Origin: a virus
Direction: 5' to 3' (one strand)
Length of the DNA: 28,465 bases
Virus record (IMG/VR): IMGVR_UViG_3300006752_000151
Coordinates: 1-28,465 of that record
A model generated the notes under the pieces. The model had not been told where the DNA came from. It did no database searches and saw only the letters and a program-made list of their open reading frames with translations. This document shows, piece after piece, positions 21,821 to 28,465 of the stretch (position 1 is its first letter; every line of letters starts with the position of its first letter). The translations under genes and the position numbers were made by a program.

Positions 21821-22352
21821 AATAAATTAAATCTTCTAATGTTTTAATAGCTGTGTGCTCTAAATCTGTTACATAACATGATGAATTTCGTAGCTCGCAA
21901 TCGATCTGCTCAGAATCTAAACCTGACTCGGACACATGTTTGTCTTTTGCCGCTTCTTCTTCCTGTGCCGGACGATACACGCGAACAACCTTTCCACCTC
22001 TTGCGTGAATCATTGCCGCCTCATTCGGAAATCGCACATCATCGATTACATAGTTTTTACCATCATCTATACGCTTCTCTAAAGCCCTGACCCATATATT
22101 CTGCGAGACGAGCTCACGCCCGAATTCAGTGCCCAAAATCTGCATCAGTTCCCGTGGGCTTTTTCCATACTCGTCGAGAGGGATTTCTTTAATCGTAGGG
22201 TCATTTAGTTCCGCATCCCCCAGACCAAGAACCCTAAGCATGTCCTTGATCGGGGAAGCGAAACTTAAGATTTCGTAACCCAGACGATCTCTAAAAATAT
22301 TAGCGACTGATGATTTTCCACACCCTTTTCTTCCCGTTAATCCTATAATCAT
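21786..22352 (-). CDS. Deoxynucleoside monophosphate kinase, 188 aa
   Basis: The start is taken at ATG 22352 (MIIGLTGRKGCGKSS), overlapping the polymerase stop (ATGA). The P-loop G-R-K-G-C-G-K-S is at residues 7-14. Later motifs, LSFASPIKDMLRVL, GKSPRELMQILGTEFGREL and NYVIDDVRFPNEAAMI, are those of T4 gp1-like dNMP kinases. The enzyme phosphorylates dNMPs to dNDPs for phage DNA synthesis. A longer frame from 22409 exists, but it lies in the polymerase gene and lacks homology. The 3' end overlaps the primase-helicase start. Confidence 0.88.
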   Translation of the reverse strand: MIIGLTGRKGCGKSSVANIFRDRLGYEILSFASPIKDMLRVLGLGDAELNDPTIKEIPLDEYGKSPRELMQILGTEFGRELVSQNIWVRALEKRIDDGKNYVIDDVRFPNEAAMIHARGGKVVRVYRPAQEEEAAKDKHVSESGLDSEQIDCELRNSSCYVTDLEHTAIKTLEDLIYYGTIYDTQPVS

Positions 22353-24244
22353 TTCGTATACTCCTTTGATATTATCGCTTCTGATGCTAATGGAACCCTG
22401 TCCATCCACTCGGGCGGCTGGCTCATTATTTTCTGTATCGCCGATTTTGATTCTTCCGCATAAGCCTCATCGACTTCTACAACAACCTCATCGTGAACAT
22501 GCAAAACCACATCGAATCCTGCGTGGTCTAGGTTTGTAAGTATTCTCCCAAACGCATCACGAGCCAATGCCTGAACCTTATTTTGAAATAGGTTGGCCCC
22601 GTACATTTTTACCCTGCGTATAGATCCTTTCTGAGTTGCGCATGTTACACCGTCCGGCTCATGCCGGCAGCGGTAATATTTTAACTCTCTGCCAGACTCG
22701 ATCGGTACCATGAAATCTGCACCCTCTCCGGCCGCCGACTTTAGTTGGCGATCCAGATCTTTCCATTGGCTCACGATCCTTTGGTTTTTATCGCGGAAAT
22801 CCTGGACTTGGATGAAGGCATTGACCCATTGCCGACGGTCTTCGGTCGAAAGGTTAGGGTACATCGCACCTTTTGCGGGCTGATAACTATTCGCGAATTT
22901 CTGAAATCTTATCTCATCTTCGCGGCTGAAATCATTATCTAATATCTGCTGCTGACCATACAGCTTTACCGTCTCCGCAAACTTAAACCAACCGCTGCCA
23001 TAGCCCAACTGAAGAACACGGACTTTAGCGAGAAGGTAGAGCTCGGGATCTTCATCCTTTAATTTACCTCCTGTCCAGCCCATGGTCTGCCGAGCGTGTG
23101 CTTCATACGGACTCATACCTTTCCGAATCAGATCAAGAAAGTCGAAATCTCCTGCGACGAAAGCCGTTAGTCGAGGCTCGATCTGCGAAAGGTCAGAAAT
23201 TATTAAGGTTTTACCTTCACCCGCGGACACCATGTTTCGAATATTAACACCGTACTTAGTGTCCCGGGGCATATTCTGAACATTGAACCCTGCATCTCCA
23301 CTCCATCTGCCCGTAGCATCTGCGCCAAAATATTTAAGGTTATACGACATGCGGTCCTCTGTGGTCAGCCTGTCCTTAATCGAACGTAACCTCTGAAGAT
23401 GCATGTTAATACGATTATGATTCTGCATCGCAGCCACAAAGGTAAGCTTATCACCATGCTCCTTAATCCATTCCGCTAGAGCAGGGGAGTCCTTCGCGAG
23501 ACTTTTAGGCGGTTCTACTCCCGCTTTTCTACACTCCAACGCCATCGCTTTTTTAGAGTAAACGACATACTCCTTTTTTGTGTCTGGATCCACCTCACCG
23601 TACCACGGCAATGCTTTCTTTGCCTCGAACAGGTGTTTTTCTAATTTATCTATACCGTCCGCCAAAGCCCTTTGATCGATGGGCAAGCCACGATACGCCA
23701 TGGCCCGAGTCATCTCGGAAAGTCTACGCTCATGCTCCGGCCATTGGTCGAAGTACTTTTCCCATATCTGATATGTATACTTAGAGTCATCGAGGGCGTA
23801 CTGAAGGACCGCTTTACTTTCGTCCATGGCGATCATGTCAGCCCAGGTTTTTCCCTTCATGTTTGTCCGGACTCCTTTGTCCATCTCAACCCCGAGAATC
23901 TCTTTAGCTGAACCTTTTAAATTTCTCTGGAACTGAAAATAGACGCACATGTCAGCCGTGCATATCCATTTAACTTTTATGTCGGGAATAATCCCAAGCT
24001 CCTGGCATCGCTCAAAACATCTCTGATCGAAGGAGGCGTTATGTGCAATGAAGGTGCACCCATCTAACTTCTTCCAATCTTTAAAATCCTCCGTTCTTCC
24101 TACATACGCCAAATCGGGGCTCCATAAGGAGACAAGATATGCGTCGAACTCCGGATGGTGTACATACTGATATGTACTGCTGCCTGCTATCGAATAATCT
24201 TTCGAATAGTAGGTCTCAAAATCTAGTGCCAATACTTTATTCAT
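22349..24244 (-). CDS. DNA polymerase A family with 3'-5' exonuclease, 631 aa
   Basis: The exonuclease residues are visible: D8 and E10 in LALDFETYYS, N69 and D73 in FIAHNASFDQRCF, D152/D153 in YALDDSKYT. Polymerase motif A is LIISDLSQIEPRLTAF (about residue 347), the O-helix region is LLAKVRVLQLGYGSGWFKF, and motif C is LHVHDEVVVEV (about 581). This is the phage-type polymerase of T7-like and related phages, somewhat shorter than T7 gp5 (704). It replicates the phage genome with the helicase and kinase encoded in the same operon. Confidence 0.93.
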   Translation of the reverse strand: MNKVLALDFETYYSKDYSIAGSSTYQYVHHPEFDAYLVSLWSPDLAYVGRTEDFKDWKKLDGCTFIAHNASFDQRCFERCQELGIIPDIKVKWICTADMCVYFQFQRNLKGSAKEILGVEMDKGVRTNMKGKTWADMIAMDESKAVLQYALDDSKYTYQIWEKYFDQWPEHERRLSEMTRAMAYRGLPIDQRALADGIDKLEKHLFEAKKALPWYGEVDPDTKKEYVVYSKKAMALECRKAGVEPPKSLAKDSPALAEWIKEHGDKLTFVAAMQNHNRINMHLQRLRSIKDRLTTEDRMSYNLKYFGADATGRWSGDAGFNVQNMPRDTKYGVNIRNMVSAGEGKTLIISDLSQIEPRLTAFVAGDFDFLDLIRKGMSPYEAHARQTMGWTGGKLKDEDPELYLLAKVRVLQLGYGSGWFKFAETVKLYGQQQILDNDFSREDEIRFQKFANSYQPAKGAMYPNLSTEDRRQWVNAFIQVQDFRDKNQRIVSQWKDLDRQLKSAAGEGADFMVPIESGRELKYYRCRHEPDGVTCATQKGSIRRVKMYGANLFQNKVQALARDAFGRILTNLDHAGFDVVLHVHDEVVVEVDEAYAEESKSAIQKIMSQPPEWMDRVPLASEAIISKEYTK

Positions 24245-24356: not shown

Positions 24357-25067
24357 TCAGCAGAAATCCTTTAGCCATTCGATGAACTTAGGATCGTTTT
24401 TTGATCCTCTTCGAATCTTAGGAACATGAACAGATTTTCCCCCGAAGGTTGCCTTCTCTGTATTTAAAAGAAAACTTCCGGTATTGATCCCGTCACGATA
24501 ATACATCCGAGCGGCTGTAAAAATCGGTACCGCTGCACGCTTATAAGCAGTTCCTTTAATTCTCCATAAGGCGAATGCGTAATTGTTCCCGTCGTACTCA
24601 AAAGGAAACACATCAGGGTCTTCCCCTTTGATGCAAATCAAGGCATCCGCTATAGGCAGCCAATTAGGCTTCTCGCCATTAGGGCCCCACTCAAAGCTTC
24701 CGCCGATTTCTACGGCTTCTGATTTAGCCACAATGCGAGGAATCTCACCGGAGTCCCAGTCCACATTTTCCTCAAACTGTTTCCCTATGCGGCAAACCGT
24801 AAACTCCACAGGAGTTGGGCCGTCAGATATTAGAGACTCGCCATCTAAAACGATCTCTCCCTTTTTATAGTTTTCGGAAAGGTTACCCATTCCTTGAACG
24901 ATCTGTAATCTCGGAAACGAGATATCGGATGCGTCCAGATCACCTGTAATACCCGCGCCGGTCGGTCCCGCCAAGGCACCGGTGGGTGATCCCTCAATGA
25001 TATCGCCAGAAGCCTCGGCTTCCGCGGTCTTTTCACTTACTTTTTCACTTAATGCTGTCTTTGCCAT
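24357..25067 (-). CDS. Putative replication-associated (possibly ssDNA-binding) protein, 236 aa
   Basis: A disordered, Ala/Gly/Thr-rich N-terminus of 45 residues leads into ISFPRLQIVQGMGNLSENYK then KGEIVL, PVEFTVCRIGKQFEENV, DVFPFEYDGNNYAFALWRIK and a C-terminal VPKIRRGSKNDPKFIEWLKD. Proteins of this kind lie between nuclease and polymerase genes in several phages and have OB-like strand content, so ssDNA binding is a guess from position and pattern. It has its own promoter with an operator-like dyad. Confidence 0.5.
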   Translation of the reverse strand: MAKTALSEKVSEKTAEAEASGDIIEGSPTGALAGPTGAGITGDLDASDISFPRLQIVQGMGNLSENYKKGEIVLDGESLISDGPTPVEFTVCRIGKQFEENVDWDSGEIPRIVAKSEAVEIGGSFEWGPNGEKPNWLPIADALICIKGEDPDVFPFEYDGNNYAFALWRIKGTAYKRAAVPIFTAARMYYRDGINTGSFLLNTEKATFGGKSVHVPKIRRGSKNDPKFIEWLKDFC

Positions 25068-25139: not shown

Positions 25140-25982
25140 TTAAAGATTTCGGGATTTCCGTAAATAAGGGCTGCGGTCGCGCTCCTCTTCGGGAGGTAAC
25201 ACCTCAGCCTCCTCCAAGCTCAGCTCAATAACAGCCCGAGCATTTTTCTTCTCCCCACGCTCAAGTTTCTCAGCATACTTTTTTGCAAGCGCTGAAACGC
25301 TAACTTTACACGCACCCATAAAATCATCTGGGCTCATGATATGAGACACTGCATCAAACGCTTCCTGTGCATCCTCAATCCCCATGCTGGCGTTTCTGTA
25401 ATGAAGATCGTAGCCAGGAATCTCGGCACCTTCCTCAACCGCAAGCTTTAATGCCTGCTTTTTAGCCGCTGCCTGCCACTTATCTACGACCTGTGCGACA
25501 TTTAACATCTTGGATAATACCATAGGATCATCCACTTTTTCGGGACTGTAATTACCCCACAGACTCATCTCGAAGTCTTCAACGCTAGCGCTGTACTTCT
25601 TGGCGAGCGGAAGCATTTTGTCAGAGAGGGCAGGGCAGGAAAGCTTGTGCTTACAGTACCTACACCCCTCAGTGTTAGGTATCGCTTCAGCTGTCTCAAG
25701 CTCTGCTTTTTCTACTATCATGTTTATACGCAACCGGATATCTTCCATGTCCGCACGGGTATAATCATGAGTTAATACCTCATCTCGTCGAGGTATTAGA
25801 AAGTGAACCGTGGCCGTCTGTAGCTCAGGGAATTTATCCATAACTCCCAAGAGGTACGCCTGGCCCTGTATGTTCATGTCAGCATCATCAATCTCTCCAA
25901 TGCCGAATTTAAAATCCACGAGATCAACATGATCTCCCTTGATAATAACCCTGTCAACTGTTCCAAATATCGTAGTACTCAT
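25140..25982 (-). CDS. RecB/Cas4-like Fe-S nuclease, C-terminal part (280 aa)
   Basis: The nuclease core is present at the very start: D10 in GTVDRVIIKGD and D23-x-K25 in LVDFKFGIGE, then MNIQGQAYLLGVMD (QxxxY-like motif). CRYCKHKLSC gives C107, C110 and C116 of a four-Cys Fe-S cluster. The rest is a helical C-terminal extension. The family (DUF2800/Cas4/AddB-like) normally has an N-terminal helical part with the first Cys and an HxxxE motif; here those lie on the separate gene 26162-26431. The ATG directly follows an in-frame TGA. The function, 5'-end processing or recombination, probably needs both parts. Confidence 0.75.
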   Translation of the reverse strand: MSTTIFGTVDRVIIKGDHVDLVDFKFGIGEIDDADMNIQGQAYLLGVMDKFPELQTATVHFLIPRRDEVLTHDYTRADMEDIRLRINMIVEKAELETAEAIPNTEGCRYCKHKLSCPALSDKMLPLAKKYSASVEDFEMSLWGNYSPEKVDDPMVLSKMLNVAQVVDKWQAAAKKQALKLAVEEGAEIPGYDLHYRNASMGIEDAQEAFDAVSHIMSPDDFMGACKVSVSALAKKYAEKLERGEKKNARAVIELSLEEAEVLPPEEERDRSPYLRKSRNL

Positions 25983-26172
25983 TCAAAATATTCTGTAAAT
26001 TTTTATTCATTTTAAACATGTAGATCGGAATGTTCCCATTCGGTGTTTCCACATGAACCATATCATCAATTATCACGATTGATGTTCCTTCTACCGGCTC
26101 TCTGAAATCTAAAAGCGTCAGCTTGTTTTCAGTGTTTTGCCGGATGATGCCCTCGATGGTACTAATTCCCAT
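25954..26172 (-). CDS. ORF inserted between the two nuclease parts, 72 aa
   Basis: The start ATG (26172) overlaps the stop of the N-terminal fragment and the stop overlaps the start of the C-terminal fragment, so all three frames are chained. The protein reads MGISTIEGIIRQNTENKL, LLDFREPVEGTSIVIIDDMV, HVETPNGNIPIYMFKMNKNL and NILNEYYDIWNS; composition is normal coding. No family is recognised, and it shows no intein, intron or homing-nuclease signature. It may be a genuine small gene that split the nuclease, or a segment joined by frameshifting. Confidence 0.55.
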   Translation of the reverse strand: MGISTIEGIIRQNTENKLTLLDFREPVEGTSIVIIDDMVHVETPNGNIPIYMFKMNKNLQNILNEYYDIWNS

Positions 26173-26431
26173 GGCGAATACTGACTCGTAATTCTTTATG
26201 GATATCATCTGCTAAATCCTCCAAAGGTTTAATATAATCCAAACATGAGATGACCAGACGAAGCTGTTCTTCATTTAAGCCGTCCAGGTTGCCTGTCTCA
26301 GCCGCCGAGTGAAGCATGGTGCCTTCCTCAGCAAAAATATTAGTCTCATTGCTCGATCGATAGCTTGGGCAAATTTCCACATACTTTAATGTGCTCGGCC
26401 CAAGCTCGTGATGTTCTTCCGGGCTACTCAT
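26162..26431 (-). CDS. RecB/Cas4-like Fe-S nuclease, N-terminal part (89 aa)
   Basis: The start is taken at ATG 26431 (MSSPEEHHELGPSTLKYVEI), overlapping the upstream stop. C21 in ICPSYRS and H41-x-x-x-E45 in AEEGTMLHSAAE match the N-terminal first cysteine and the HxxxE motif of DUF2800-type nucleases. The helical part SCLDYIKPLEDLADDIHKEL runs into ELRVSI, where the family continues into the 'GTxD' motif; here the frame stops after four more residues (RHGN). The missing half is encoded about 180 nt downstream. Confidence 0.7.
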   Translation of the reverse strand: MSSPEEHHELGPSTLKYVEICPSYRSSNETNIFAEEGTMLHSAAETGNLDGLNEEQLRLVISCLDYIKPLEDLADDIHKELRVSIRHGN

Positions 26432-26651
26432 CGAAATTGTCAAATTCAGAGGTTGTAGGTTTCTCAGCAGTTTTACTAAACGCTTCACTGATACCCCAAT
26501 CATCAGGCAGCATGTGCTGATCCGCATTGACCGGGTGAAAACCCGCCGCGACGACCAAGCCCTTCAGCGCAATCATTATACGGTCAAGGCTGGAGTCTTC
26601 CGGTATCGAAGCACTGACCTCGTTACCGTACTGCACGATACTAATCTTCAT
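26424..26651 (-). CDS. Hypothetical early protein, 75 aa
   Basis: The start is set at ATG 26651 (MKISIVQYGNEVSASIPEDS), which overlaps the upstream stop; upstream in-frame Met codons lie in the preceding gene. A beta start, a helix (SLDRIMIALKGLVVAAGFHP) and an acidic tail (SEFDNFDE) are visible. Acidic aromatic C-terminal tails of this kind occur on ssDNA-binding proteins, but the rest does not resemble one. It is directly upstream of the split nuclease in the same operon. Confidence 0.55.
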   Translation of the reverse strand: MKISIVQYGNEVSASIPEDSSLDRIMIALKGLVVAAGFHPVNADQHMLPDDWGISEAFSKTAEKPTTSEFDNFDE

Positions 26652-26880
26652 CAACTCTCTCGGCATCCGCACCATCTTTTTTACCCTCCTCTAAGTTTTT
26701 TACGTAATTTTCTAAACCTTCACGAATTGCGATATTTATAAAATCAGCATCCGTTGCGATATCCCTGCCCCAATCAGCAAGCATGCTATGAGTGTTATCA
26801 CCCATCTCCAGATCCATCTCGGAATACATCACATCCCGAAACTCTATTATTTTAATAATAGGCAGGTCTTTACTCTCCAT
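26641..26880 (-). CDS. Hypothetical early protein, 79 aa
   Basis: An acidic, mainly helical protein (MESKDLPIIKIIEFRDVMYS, then ADWGRDIATDADFINIAIRE and ending AERVDED). No family is recognised. It overlaps both neighbours by about 11 nt, so it is translated as part of the minus-strand early operon. Confidence 0.6.
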   Translation of the reverse strand: MESKDLPIIKIIEFRDVMYSEMDLEMGDNTHSMLADWGRDIATDADFINIAIREGLENYVKNLEEGKKDGADAERVDED

Positions 26881-27154
26881 TGTCGATCGCCCTCGCTAAC
26901 AGGATTAACATTTTGTGAACATTCGCGATCTCTGCCTGAAGGGCATGAATCTGAAATTCCTGAAATGCAAAGTAAGTAACCAAAGAGTCTCGGTCCTTTG
27001 TGTCCTCTTCATGCTTCAACATTTCCACAACTCTTTCACGAATCTCTTCGAGCTGCTCTGCCGCATCCCCTGGCAAATCGTCCAAGGTTTCTAGTGTTTG
27101 AAACTTCTCCCTGCTTAAATCAGGGTCGGGTTCGTAATCTGGATTGAATCTCAT
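26870..27154 (-). CDS. Hypothetical early protein, 94 aa, coiled coil
   Basis: The N-terminus is acidic (MRFNPDYEPDPDLSREKFQT) and the rest helical with heptad character (EQLEEIRERVVEMLKHEEDT, FQIHALQAEIANVHKMLILL). No family is recognised. It is the first gene after the early promoter at 27193 and has the AACCACACACCAC element in its leader. Confidence 0.6.
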   Translation of the reverse strand: MRFNPDYEPDPDLSREKFQTLETLDDLPGDAAEQLEEIRERVVEMLKHEEDTKDRDSLVTYFAFQEFQIHALQAEIANVHKMLILLARAIDNGE

Positions 27155-27362: not shown

Positions 27363-27438
<76 letters not shown>

Positions 27439-27446
27439 GAATAAAA

Positions 27447-27522
27447 TGGTGGAGCCAGACGGGATCGAACCGACGACCTCCTGAATGCAAATCAGGCGCT
27501 CTTCCAACTGAGCTATGGCCCC
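27447..27522 (-). tRNA. tRNA-Ala(UGC)
   Basis: A complete 76-nt cloverleaf: acceptor GGGGCCA/TGGCTCC with the alanine identity pair G3-U70, D arm GCTC/GAGC, anticodon stem CCTGA/TCAGG with loop TTTGCAT (anticodon TGC), and encoded CCA. The T stem (GTCGG/CCGTC) has one T-T mismatch. Alanine codons GCA/GCU are abundant in the fibre and capsid genes. Confidence 0.97.
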
Positions 27523-27530
27523 AAAATATG

Positions 27531-28465
27531 TCATAGAATCGGGTTCATCTCATCATCATTAATGAGATCTAAATTGTTAAGCTTCTGTCTAACCGCTTTG
27601 CACACACGCATCTCTACAGTGTCATTAGCGAAGACTATTTTCTGAACCGCGTGACTCTTTGATCCGGCGCGATGGATGCGACCGAGAACCTGTCTTAAAT
27701 CAACCGCGCTAAAGCTCGGGCTTATTAAAGATACACGAGGATATTCACCGGTTTCATCATGCAGGCTAATCCCGGTGCCACCTGCTTGTGTCATGCACAG
27801 ACAGATACGGGTCTTGCCTTCCTGAAACTTCCGGATTTCTAAAGATCTTTCATAATCATCCTGACCACCATGGATTAAACTAATCTCATGCTCACCCGCC
27901 AAACGCCGAAGCAGGGCCTCCATCGTGTCACGGAAATTCACAAAAATCGCAACAGCATTACCCTCCTCCAATGCATCCCGGGCCAAGGACTCAAATAATG
28001 GGACCTTTAAAAGCTCCACCTCCTGCCTTGCACGAAGCTGCAAGATCAAAGGGCTGTCCAATTCGTCATCCTCACGCTTCTCATCCAAAGATAAAAGGTC
28101 AGCCTTTAAATCAGAATACGCCAGCTCTATAGCCGCCCGGCTTTCGATATCATATCCATCGGCTGATATTATAGAGTCAGGGAACGAGCCGGGGGGCAGG
28201 TCTCTAACCCGAATCCTGCTACCCCGTCCCTGCTTGTAGATGTGATCGTGAATCCTTTTTAAGGCCGCTTTCGTTCCCATGAATTTTAGCCCGCCAAAGG
28301 TTCCGCGTTTACACCCGTTCTTAAGGCACCAATTCCACCATCCCCGATCATTATGAAAATCAAGCACATATCCCATAGCTCTCATCTCGACAGGGTTGGT
28401 ACAACTAGTGGCACCAAGCATTAAAGTCTTAAACCCTCCACGCTTAGCCGCTATCATCATCTTTG
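27531..28465 (-). CDS. SNF2/DEAD-like helicase, C-terminal part (cut by window edge)
   Basis: The frame stays open to the right edge, so the N-terminal motor domain with Walker A is missing. Visible are a motif III-like LMLGATSCTNP, the second RecA-like domain with AIFVNFRDTMEALLRRL and ISLIHGGQDDYERSLEIRKF, motif V QAGGTGISLHD and motif VI LRQVLGRIHRAGSK. This is the C-terminal helicase domain of SNF2-type proteins found in many phage replication modules. The apparent Met at 28460 is probably internal. Two tRNA genes follow on the same strand. Confidence 0.85.
   Translation of the reverse strand, partial: KMMIAAKRGGFKTLMLGATSCTNPVEMRAMGYVLDFHNDRGWWNWCLKNGCKRGTFGGLKFMGTKAALKRIHDHIYKQGRGSRIRVRDLPPGSFPDSIISADGYDIESRAAIELAYSDLKADLLSLDEKREDDELDSPLILQLRARQEVELLKVPLFESLARDALEEGNAVAIFVNFRDTMEALLRRLAGEHEISLIHGGQDDYERSLEIRKFQEGKTRICLCMTQAGGTGISLHDETGEYPRVSLISPSFSAVDLRQVLGRIHRAGSKSHAVQKIVFANDTVEMRVCKAVRQKLNNLDLINDDEMNPIL

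Follow-up and report, generated by a model that had tools for sequence, protein, structure and literature searches.

Two halves of a putative phage iron-staple nuclease are encoded by separate genes with a small conserved ORF at the break

Analysis of a virus record of 28,465 bases, which at its full length is referred to here as the window, revealed a replication cassette in which the two halves of a nuclease are carried by separate genes. We consider it likely that these genes, N and C, give rise to separately translated subunits of one iron-staple nuclease, with the product of a small ORF located between them, M, serving as an accessory. Together, N and C would form a Cas4/AddB-like (DUF2800) nuclease, which is probably the exonuclease of a helicase/exonuclease/ssDNA-binding protein/polymerase cassette. 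N, M and C all reside on the minus strand, where they are preceded by the helicase, two tRNAs and three small genes and followed by one more gene and DNA polymerase A. The features are as follows:

27531..28460, minus strand: helicase, C-terminal 309 aa only, the gene being cut by the record end
26162..26431, minus strand: N half of the nuclease, 89 aa, with C21, H41xxxE45 and the predicted strand beta1 (KELRVSIRHGN) at its end; dN/dS 0.062
26162..26172, minus strand: N/M overlap, 11 nt; the M ATG precedes the N stop
25954..26172, minus strand: middle ORF M, 72 aa, predicted small beta-barrel plus helix; dN/dS 0.188
25954..25982, minus strand: M/C overlap, 29 nt; the C ATG precedes the M stop
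25140..25982, minus strand: C half of the nuclease, 280 aa, with GTVD, DFK and C107/C110/C116; DUF2800 / PDDEXK_1; dN/dS 0.058
24357..25067, minus strand: gene after C, at the position that by synteny is taken by a single-strand-binding-like gene (DUF2815 or OB-fold) in unsplit-nuclease phages
22349..24244, minus strand: DNA polymerase family A by family match, same replication cassette

The three ORFs lie on the minus strand as an initial annotation had described them, and the motifs and cysteines assigned there to N and C are present as well. M, read from a conserved ATG at 26172 (an additional in-frame ATG is found at 26208), occupies the third frame, which differs from the frames of N and C. 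The chaining of the ORFs by overlap had been regarded as an argument against decay. The chaining itself holds, and the overlaps of 11 nt and 29 nt represent overlapping genes rather than ATGA or TAATG junctions. The argument drawn from it carries little weight by itself, since overlap is normal in this genome: the three ORFs upstream of N (26424-26675, 26641-26880 and 26870-27154) overlap one another likewise, and tight overlap alone is therefore weak evidence. In relatives, the open frames of the helicase comprise 437-489 aa. The product of 24357..25067 yielded no family match of its own, and for the polymerase the best identity is 25.7% among the matches listed.

The sequence motifs of a PD-(D/E)XK nuclease are distributed over both genes. 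C bears GTVD at residues 7-10, DFK at 23-25 and C107-x2-C110-x5-C116, and N contributes C21 and the H41-S-A-A-E45 motif. In alignments, G7, T8, D10, D23 and K25 are invariant in C, as are H41 and E45 in N; C21 is retained in 16/16 N rows, and C107, C110 and C116 in 16/16 C rows. One N-terminal and three C-terminal cysteines hold the domain of iron-staple nucleases together (PMC3466216), and the iron-sulfur staple of Cas4 and AddB is built from four such cysteines (PMC3466216, PMC7430649). Judged from the alignments, the four-cysteine set (one N-terminal plus CX2CX5C) is complete here, yet spread over two chains. Profile searches matched the C half to PF10926 (DUF2800; E 4.6e-21) and PF12705 (PDDEXK_1; 4.4e-9). 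The phrog_69 exonuclease family was recovered at 3e-28 for C and at just 0.019 for N alone, which gave no Pfam match. Annotation pipelines will miss N with its 89 aa and label C a truncated exonuclease. Relatives in annotated phages are distant, sharing at most ~35% identity with C among the matches listed.

Comparison with unsplit homologues, suggested by the initial annotation as a way to find the break, placed it in a single turn by means of one relative. This locus, L069, belongs to the window's clade, lacks M and encodes an unsplit nuclease of 369 aa that shares 78% identity with the window in N and 64% with the best clade member in C, and that matches PF10926 across residues 48-328 (2.5e-29). 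It reads through both halves uninterrupted (HKEMRVKVVYREDGSSIFGTVDLVII), and the linker joining the two halves is VVYREDGSSIFGTVD. In its AF2 model (pLDDT 81.7, pTM 0.57), beta1 covers residues 76-86, a turn 87-92 and beta2 93-104, with block pLDDT values of 94-98 in this region. N stops just past beta1 and C begins at beta2. For a PD-(D/E)XK nuclease of the Cas4/AddB ("iron-staple") type, the model thus puts the break in the turn of the beta1-beta2 hairpin. A fold search with the same model returned the AdnA nuclease (Z 16.1, 195 residues, 2.8 A), followed by ACE1 (Z 11.4), AddAB, Cas4 and RecE; a search of PDB sequences with the full-nuclease profile gave none at E <= 1, although the fold search matched. 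Other phage homologues, taken from eight annotated genomes and one unannotated scaffold, are open through the break point in 9/9 cases, and in two of these nine the gene next to the nuclease encodes an OB-fold or DUF2815 protein, with more DNA-metabolism genes beyond it. The initial annotation had also considered that M might align as an ordinary internal segment of the nuclease in close relatives; no such case was found, M being missing from the unsplit relatives. L069 does without M, which shows M to be dispensable once the halves are joined.

To determine the extent of the arrangement, IMG/VR and GTDB contigs were scanned and 60 loci were examined for both halves. Five of these are without N, and the remaining 55 lie on 44 distinct contigs (11 repeat a contig), some of which are near-identical. 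N and C are present as separate ORFs in 42 of the 44 contigs and as a single ORF in two (L069 and L117), and M accompanies the split in 41 of the 42 split contigs, missing in L115 as well as in the unsplit L069 and L117. Since 42/44 contigs share the arrangement, a sequencing error in the window is no explanation for the split. L115 and L117 may contain sequencing errors themselves and were given little weight; the unsplit nuclease ORF at L117:2680-3702 stops early (340 aa), possibly reflecting a frame error, and its linker is unlike that of L069. After the overlapping ends had been trimmed, 10 independent pairs gave dN/dS values of 0.062 (N), 0.188 (M) and 0.058 (C). Differences fall mainly on the third codon position (positions 1/2/3: N 47/21/213, M 62/56/154, C 154/66/742), and the M frame is free of stops (0 in 1102 codons), the other two frames containing 63 and 73 in 1082 codons. 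Together with the invariant cysteines of N and C, this goes far beyond what chance would give. Such purifying selection on all three ORFs indicates that N, M and C are all translated and maintained. By these sequence measures, N and C are maintained equally strictly, M is a genuine protein-coding gene, and the split arose long ago and has been kept by selection.

The history of the split was addressed with a tree of 51 rows, for which the test groups were named after the tree was seen, weakening the tree tests reported here. L069 falls within the split clade, at a fork (87/93) that the tree does not resolve. Placing L069 outside all others was borderline (p-AU 0.054), and the M-bearing rows as one clade without L069, L115 and L117 were rejected (p-AU 0.010). 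At minimum, two changes of M state are required on the tree. For L069, loss of M together with re-fusion of the halves is the likely course of events, as far as the sequences indicate.

A second split was encountered in the sister clade, which comprises 19 loci with 36-46% identity to C. In 10/19 of these loci the nuclease is unsplit and lies in the helicase reading frame, as in L120, where an 830-aa ORF consists of ResIII, Helicase_C and DUF2800, and in 9/19 it is split. In the split loci, N remains on the helicase and ends in KTGV or KTGK in 9/9 cases, C opens with MTxI and continues into the beta1 stretch, and the halves are 322-1006 nt apart, with other, unrelated genes filling the gap. 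The break thus maps to the loop in front of beta1 and precedes that of the window's clade by one element; from the alignments, each of the two clades has a stable split of the same nuclease, and the two loops concerned are neighbours. The sister split site looks as if it were an insertion spot, again going by sequence. The helicase and nuclease in one ORF are reminiscent of AddAB, AdnAB, Dna2 and UvrD-Cas4 fusions; in contrast to these, only N is kept on the helicase in 9/19 sister loci, with the catalytic half separate. The gap ORFs of L119, L121, L123, L125-L127, L133, L134 and L137 (about 1928-2941) differ from phage to phage.

As for translation signals, the C start is an ATG in 24/24 loci scored; 3/27 loci (L061, L065, L068) were omitted from the Shine-Dalgarno count for C, their start codon not being settled. 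Anti-Shine-Dalgarno pairing at the C start averages -8.3 as compared to -4.0 at random positions and is <= -6 in 16/24 loci. L001, whose three proteins are identical to those of the window, shows no Shine-Dalgarno pairing at the C start (-0.1), and M starts have no Shine-Dalgarno signal on average (-4.6 vs -4.25). M starts adjoin the N stop, which is where coupled re-initiation would place them. Without a Shine-Dalgarno site at the window C start or at M starts, coupling must be assumed for these. Taken together, assembly in trans is favoured by the conserved split, by purifying selection, by the same domain order in unsplit relatives and by RBS-like sequences at most C starts. Mechanistically, the chain would be broken in the turn between beta1, at the end of N, and beta2, which lies at the start of C and carries GTxD, and the halves may reassemble in trans via beta1-beta2 pairing. 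One metal cluster would also join the chains, with C21 provided by N and C107, C110 and C116 by C. Because the ligands sit on both proteins, a cluster built like the Cas4/AddB staple would have to bridge the two. M would be made from the same message, restricted to split-nuclease phages; most likely it arrived with or into the break and now may act as an accessory of the two-chain enzyme.

The length of M ranges from 60 to 82 aa across the split clade, and its alignment consists of an N-terminal TIEGxIRQSTDNP stretch, which is missing in some lineages, and a core with IPIYAFKM; the first Met is kept in 29/29 aligned rows. The AF2 model (pLDDT 76.1, pTM 0.59) depicts a small beta-barrel plus helix, which had weak matches in the PDB (best VIA, Z 4.4; several rows SH3-like) and no Foldseek match at E <= 0.001. 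M is probably a small beta-barrel accessory. No family was found for M in Pfam, PHROGs, NCBIfam or PADLOC, where at best 1-2/29 members gave hits at E 0.004-0.09. Its sequence matched only designed-protein repeats (Cake) in the PDB, besides weak matches, and nothing below E 0.4 in annotated phages elsewhere. M was also considered as a homing endonuclease or a defence gene, and no convincing match, no HNH and no GIY-YIG motif was obtained. In the virus collection, 21/21 M loci are on contigs that had already been found to carry the split nuclease; 8 records contain a single copy of M each, and 6 others contain none. When L072 and L138 were left out of the M profile, their M was still recovered (E 2.5e-8 and 4.4e-6, respectively), and at E <= 1 nothing was detected in L069, L115, L117 or another 25 loci; the sole additional match was the helicase start of L138 (0.04). 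This helicase (L138:424-1773) starts with MPVTIEGVIRQSTGNP, close to the M N-terminal motif TIEGVIRQSTDNP, and the M of L138 itself is without the motif. As a repeated tag in other genes, TIEGxIRQSTDNP was seen outside M only at this helicase start. In L002 and L003, which are the nearest relatives of the window, most of the N-terminal motif of M is missing, though their C is ~99% identical to that of the window.

The initial annotation had listed four options for the locus, namely a trans-assembled enzyme, a frameshift-joined protein, a removed intervening sequence and a recently broken gene. Our data favour the trans-assembled enzyme; they contradict a recent break, make a frameshift unlikely and leave an intervening sequence unsupported. 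Programmed frameshifting, either from N to M to C or by a hop across M, would yield one protein and draws on the overlap at both joints and on relative frames that are constant (+1, +2) in 25/26 loci. However, the constant frame merely follows from overlap at both ends, and in the exception, L028, C is in the N frame and M ends before C. Moreover, C has its own ATG, mostly with a Shine-Dalgarno-like site, the window C frame is closed by a stop just upstream of the C ATG, in several loci the M frame is open for no more than a few codons upstream of the M ATG, and the distance of the N stop from the overlap varies. In the sister clade, joining by a frameshift is excluded by the 322-1006 nt gap between the pieces, and altogether we regard this explanation as improbable. 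Even less credit is given to an intervening sequence, such as an intron or an intein, that is excised at the RNA or protein level. Exactly this segment is missing in the unsplit L069, but selection acts on M as a protein in its own frame, no Rfam intron reached gathering scores in the window, L018, L022, L138 or L069, and the segment is short, the C match lying 131-242 nt past the N stop in M-bearing split loci. Being out of frame with N and C, M is no intein; inteins comprise over about 130 aa, and M has only 72 aa. Least of all do we believe in a recently broken pseudogene or an assembly error. The data consist of metagenome contigs only, and L117 and L115, which differ at the junction and of which L117 ends early, may include sequencing errors, but 42/44 contigs are alike and dN/dS is ~0.06.

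A rival reading of a different kind leaves the two-chain nuclease untouched and is an alternative only to M being an accessory: M could be a passenger that landed in a tolerant loop and is held there by the overlaps, having a nuclease-unrelated function, like homing endonucleases elsewhere. We see an even chance for this. There are phage precedents of working genes split by unrelated inserts (PMC2988022), the inserts of the sister clade vary from phage to phage, M has a higher rate of evolution than N and C, and the record of L069 is without M anywhere. On the other hand, M has been seen only at the split-nuclease junction (21/21 loci; once per each of 8 records, 0/6 others), and there is no homing-endonuclease match. 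It is this strict linkage that leads us to favour a role of M with the nuclease, although a trapped passenger would also give linkage. The ~3-fold faster evolution of M relative to N and C, together with the motif missing in L002 and L003, fits a loosely constrained accessory, a passenger or a subunit alike. Beyond the two-chain nuclease with M as an accessory, we tentatively entertain, with more doubt than confidence, a three-gene nuclease in which the inter-subunit Fe-S cluster serves as a latch and M is a dedicated small beta-barrel subunit controlling assembly, activity or helicase coupling. If this were true, splitting near beta1 in two clades would represent a selected route to a conditional nuclease.

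With Cas4, AddB, AdnA and Dna2 (DUF2800/PF10926, phrog_69), the two-chain nuclease shares the domain order, GTxD/DxK, the cysteines and the predicted fold of L069. It differs from these enzymes in consisting of two polypeptides and in having a third ORF in the break. Phage split genes whose products reassemble are already known, as in Aeh1 nrdA split by mobE, T4 topoisomerase with mobA and the phage 25 genes 43A/43B (PMC2988022). In common with pieces of the nrdA/mobE type, an enzyme gene is divided into two polypeptides, presumably reassembling here, uninterrupted homologues exist and both pieces are retained. Unlike in that type, the insert lacks endonuclease motifs, the split is common to a whole phage clade, and a metal cluster would, from the position of the cysteines, be divided between the chains. 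The word 'split' is missing from the main text of a Cas4 phylogenomics paper (PMC5704561), and searches of an open-access library, with subscription journals and preprints mostly outside its coverage, returned no report of this split nuclease. Within the literature searched, the split of this enzyme is new, and so are the cluster ligands on two chains and a conserved middle gene that is not an endonuclease. A natural and conserved case is at hand in which a staple believed to keep a single nuclease domain together would need to link two proteins, and its role thereby becomes directly testable. In addition, the two neighbouring loops show where natural evolution has broken a nuclease of the Cas4/AddB type, and M represents a new small protein tied to such a break.

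Some further observations concern the surroundings of the locus. Between the helicase and the small genes, at 27363-27522, the window carries one tRNA gene for Thr (ggt) and one for Ala (tgc), and L018 likewise has two tRNAs. Family matches of the three small overlapping ORFs upstream of N (26424-27154) are unconvincing. Finally, the N/M/C arrangement also occurs in L144, on a contig from the Red Sea that was binned as a Rickettsiales MAG, which may be either a hint at the host or a binning error.
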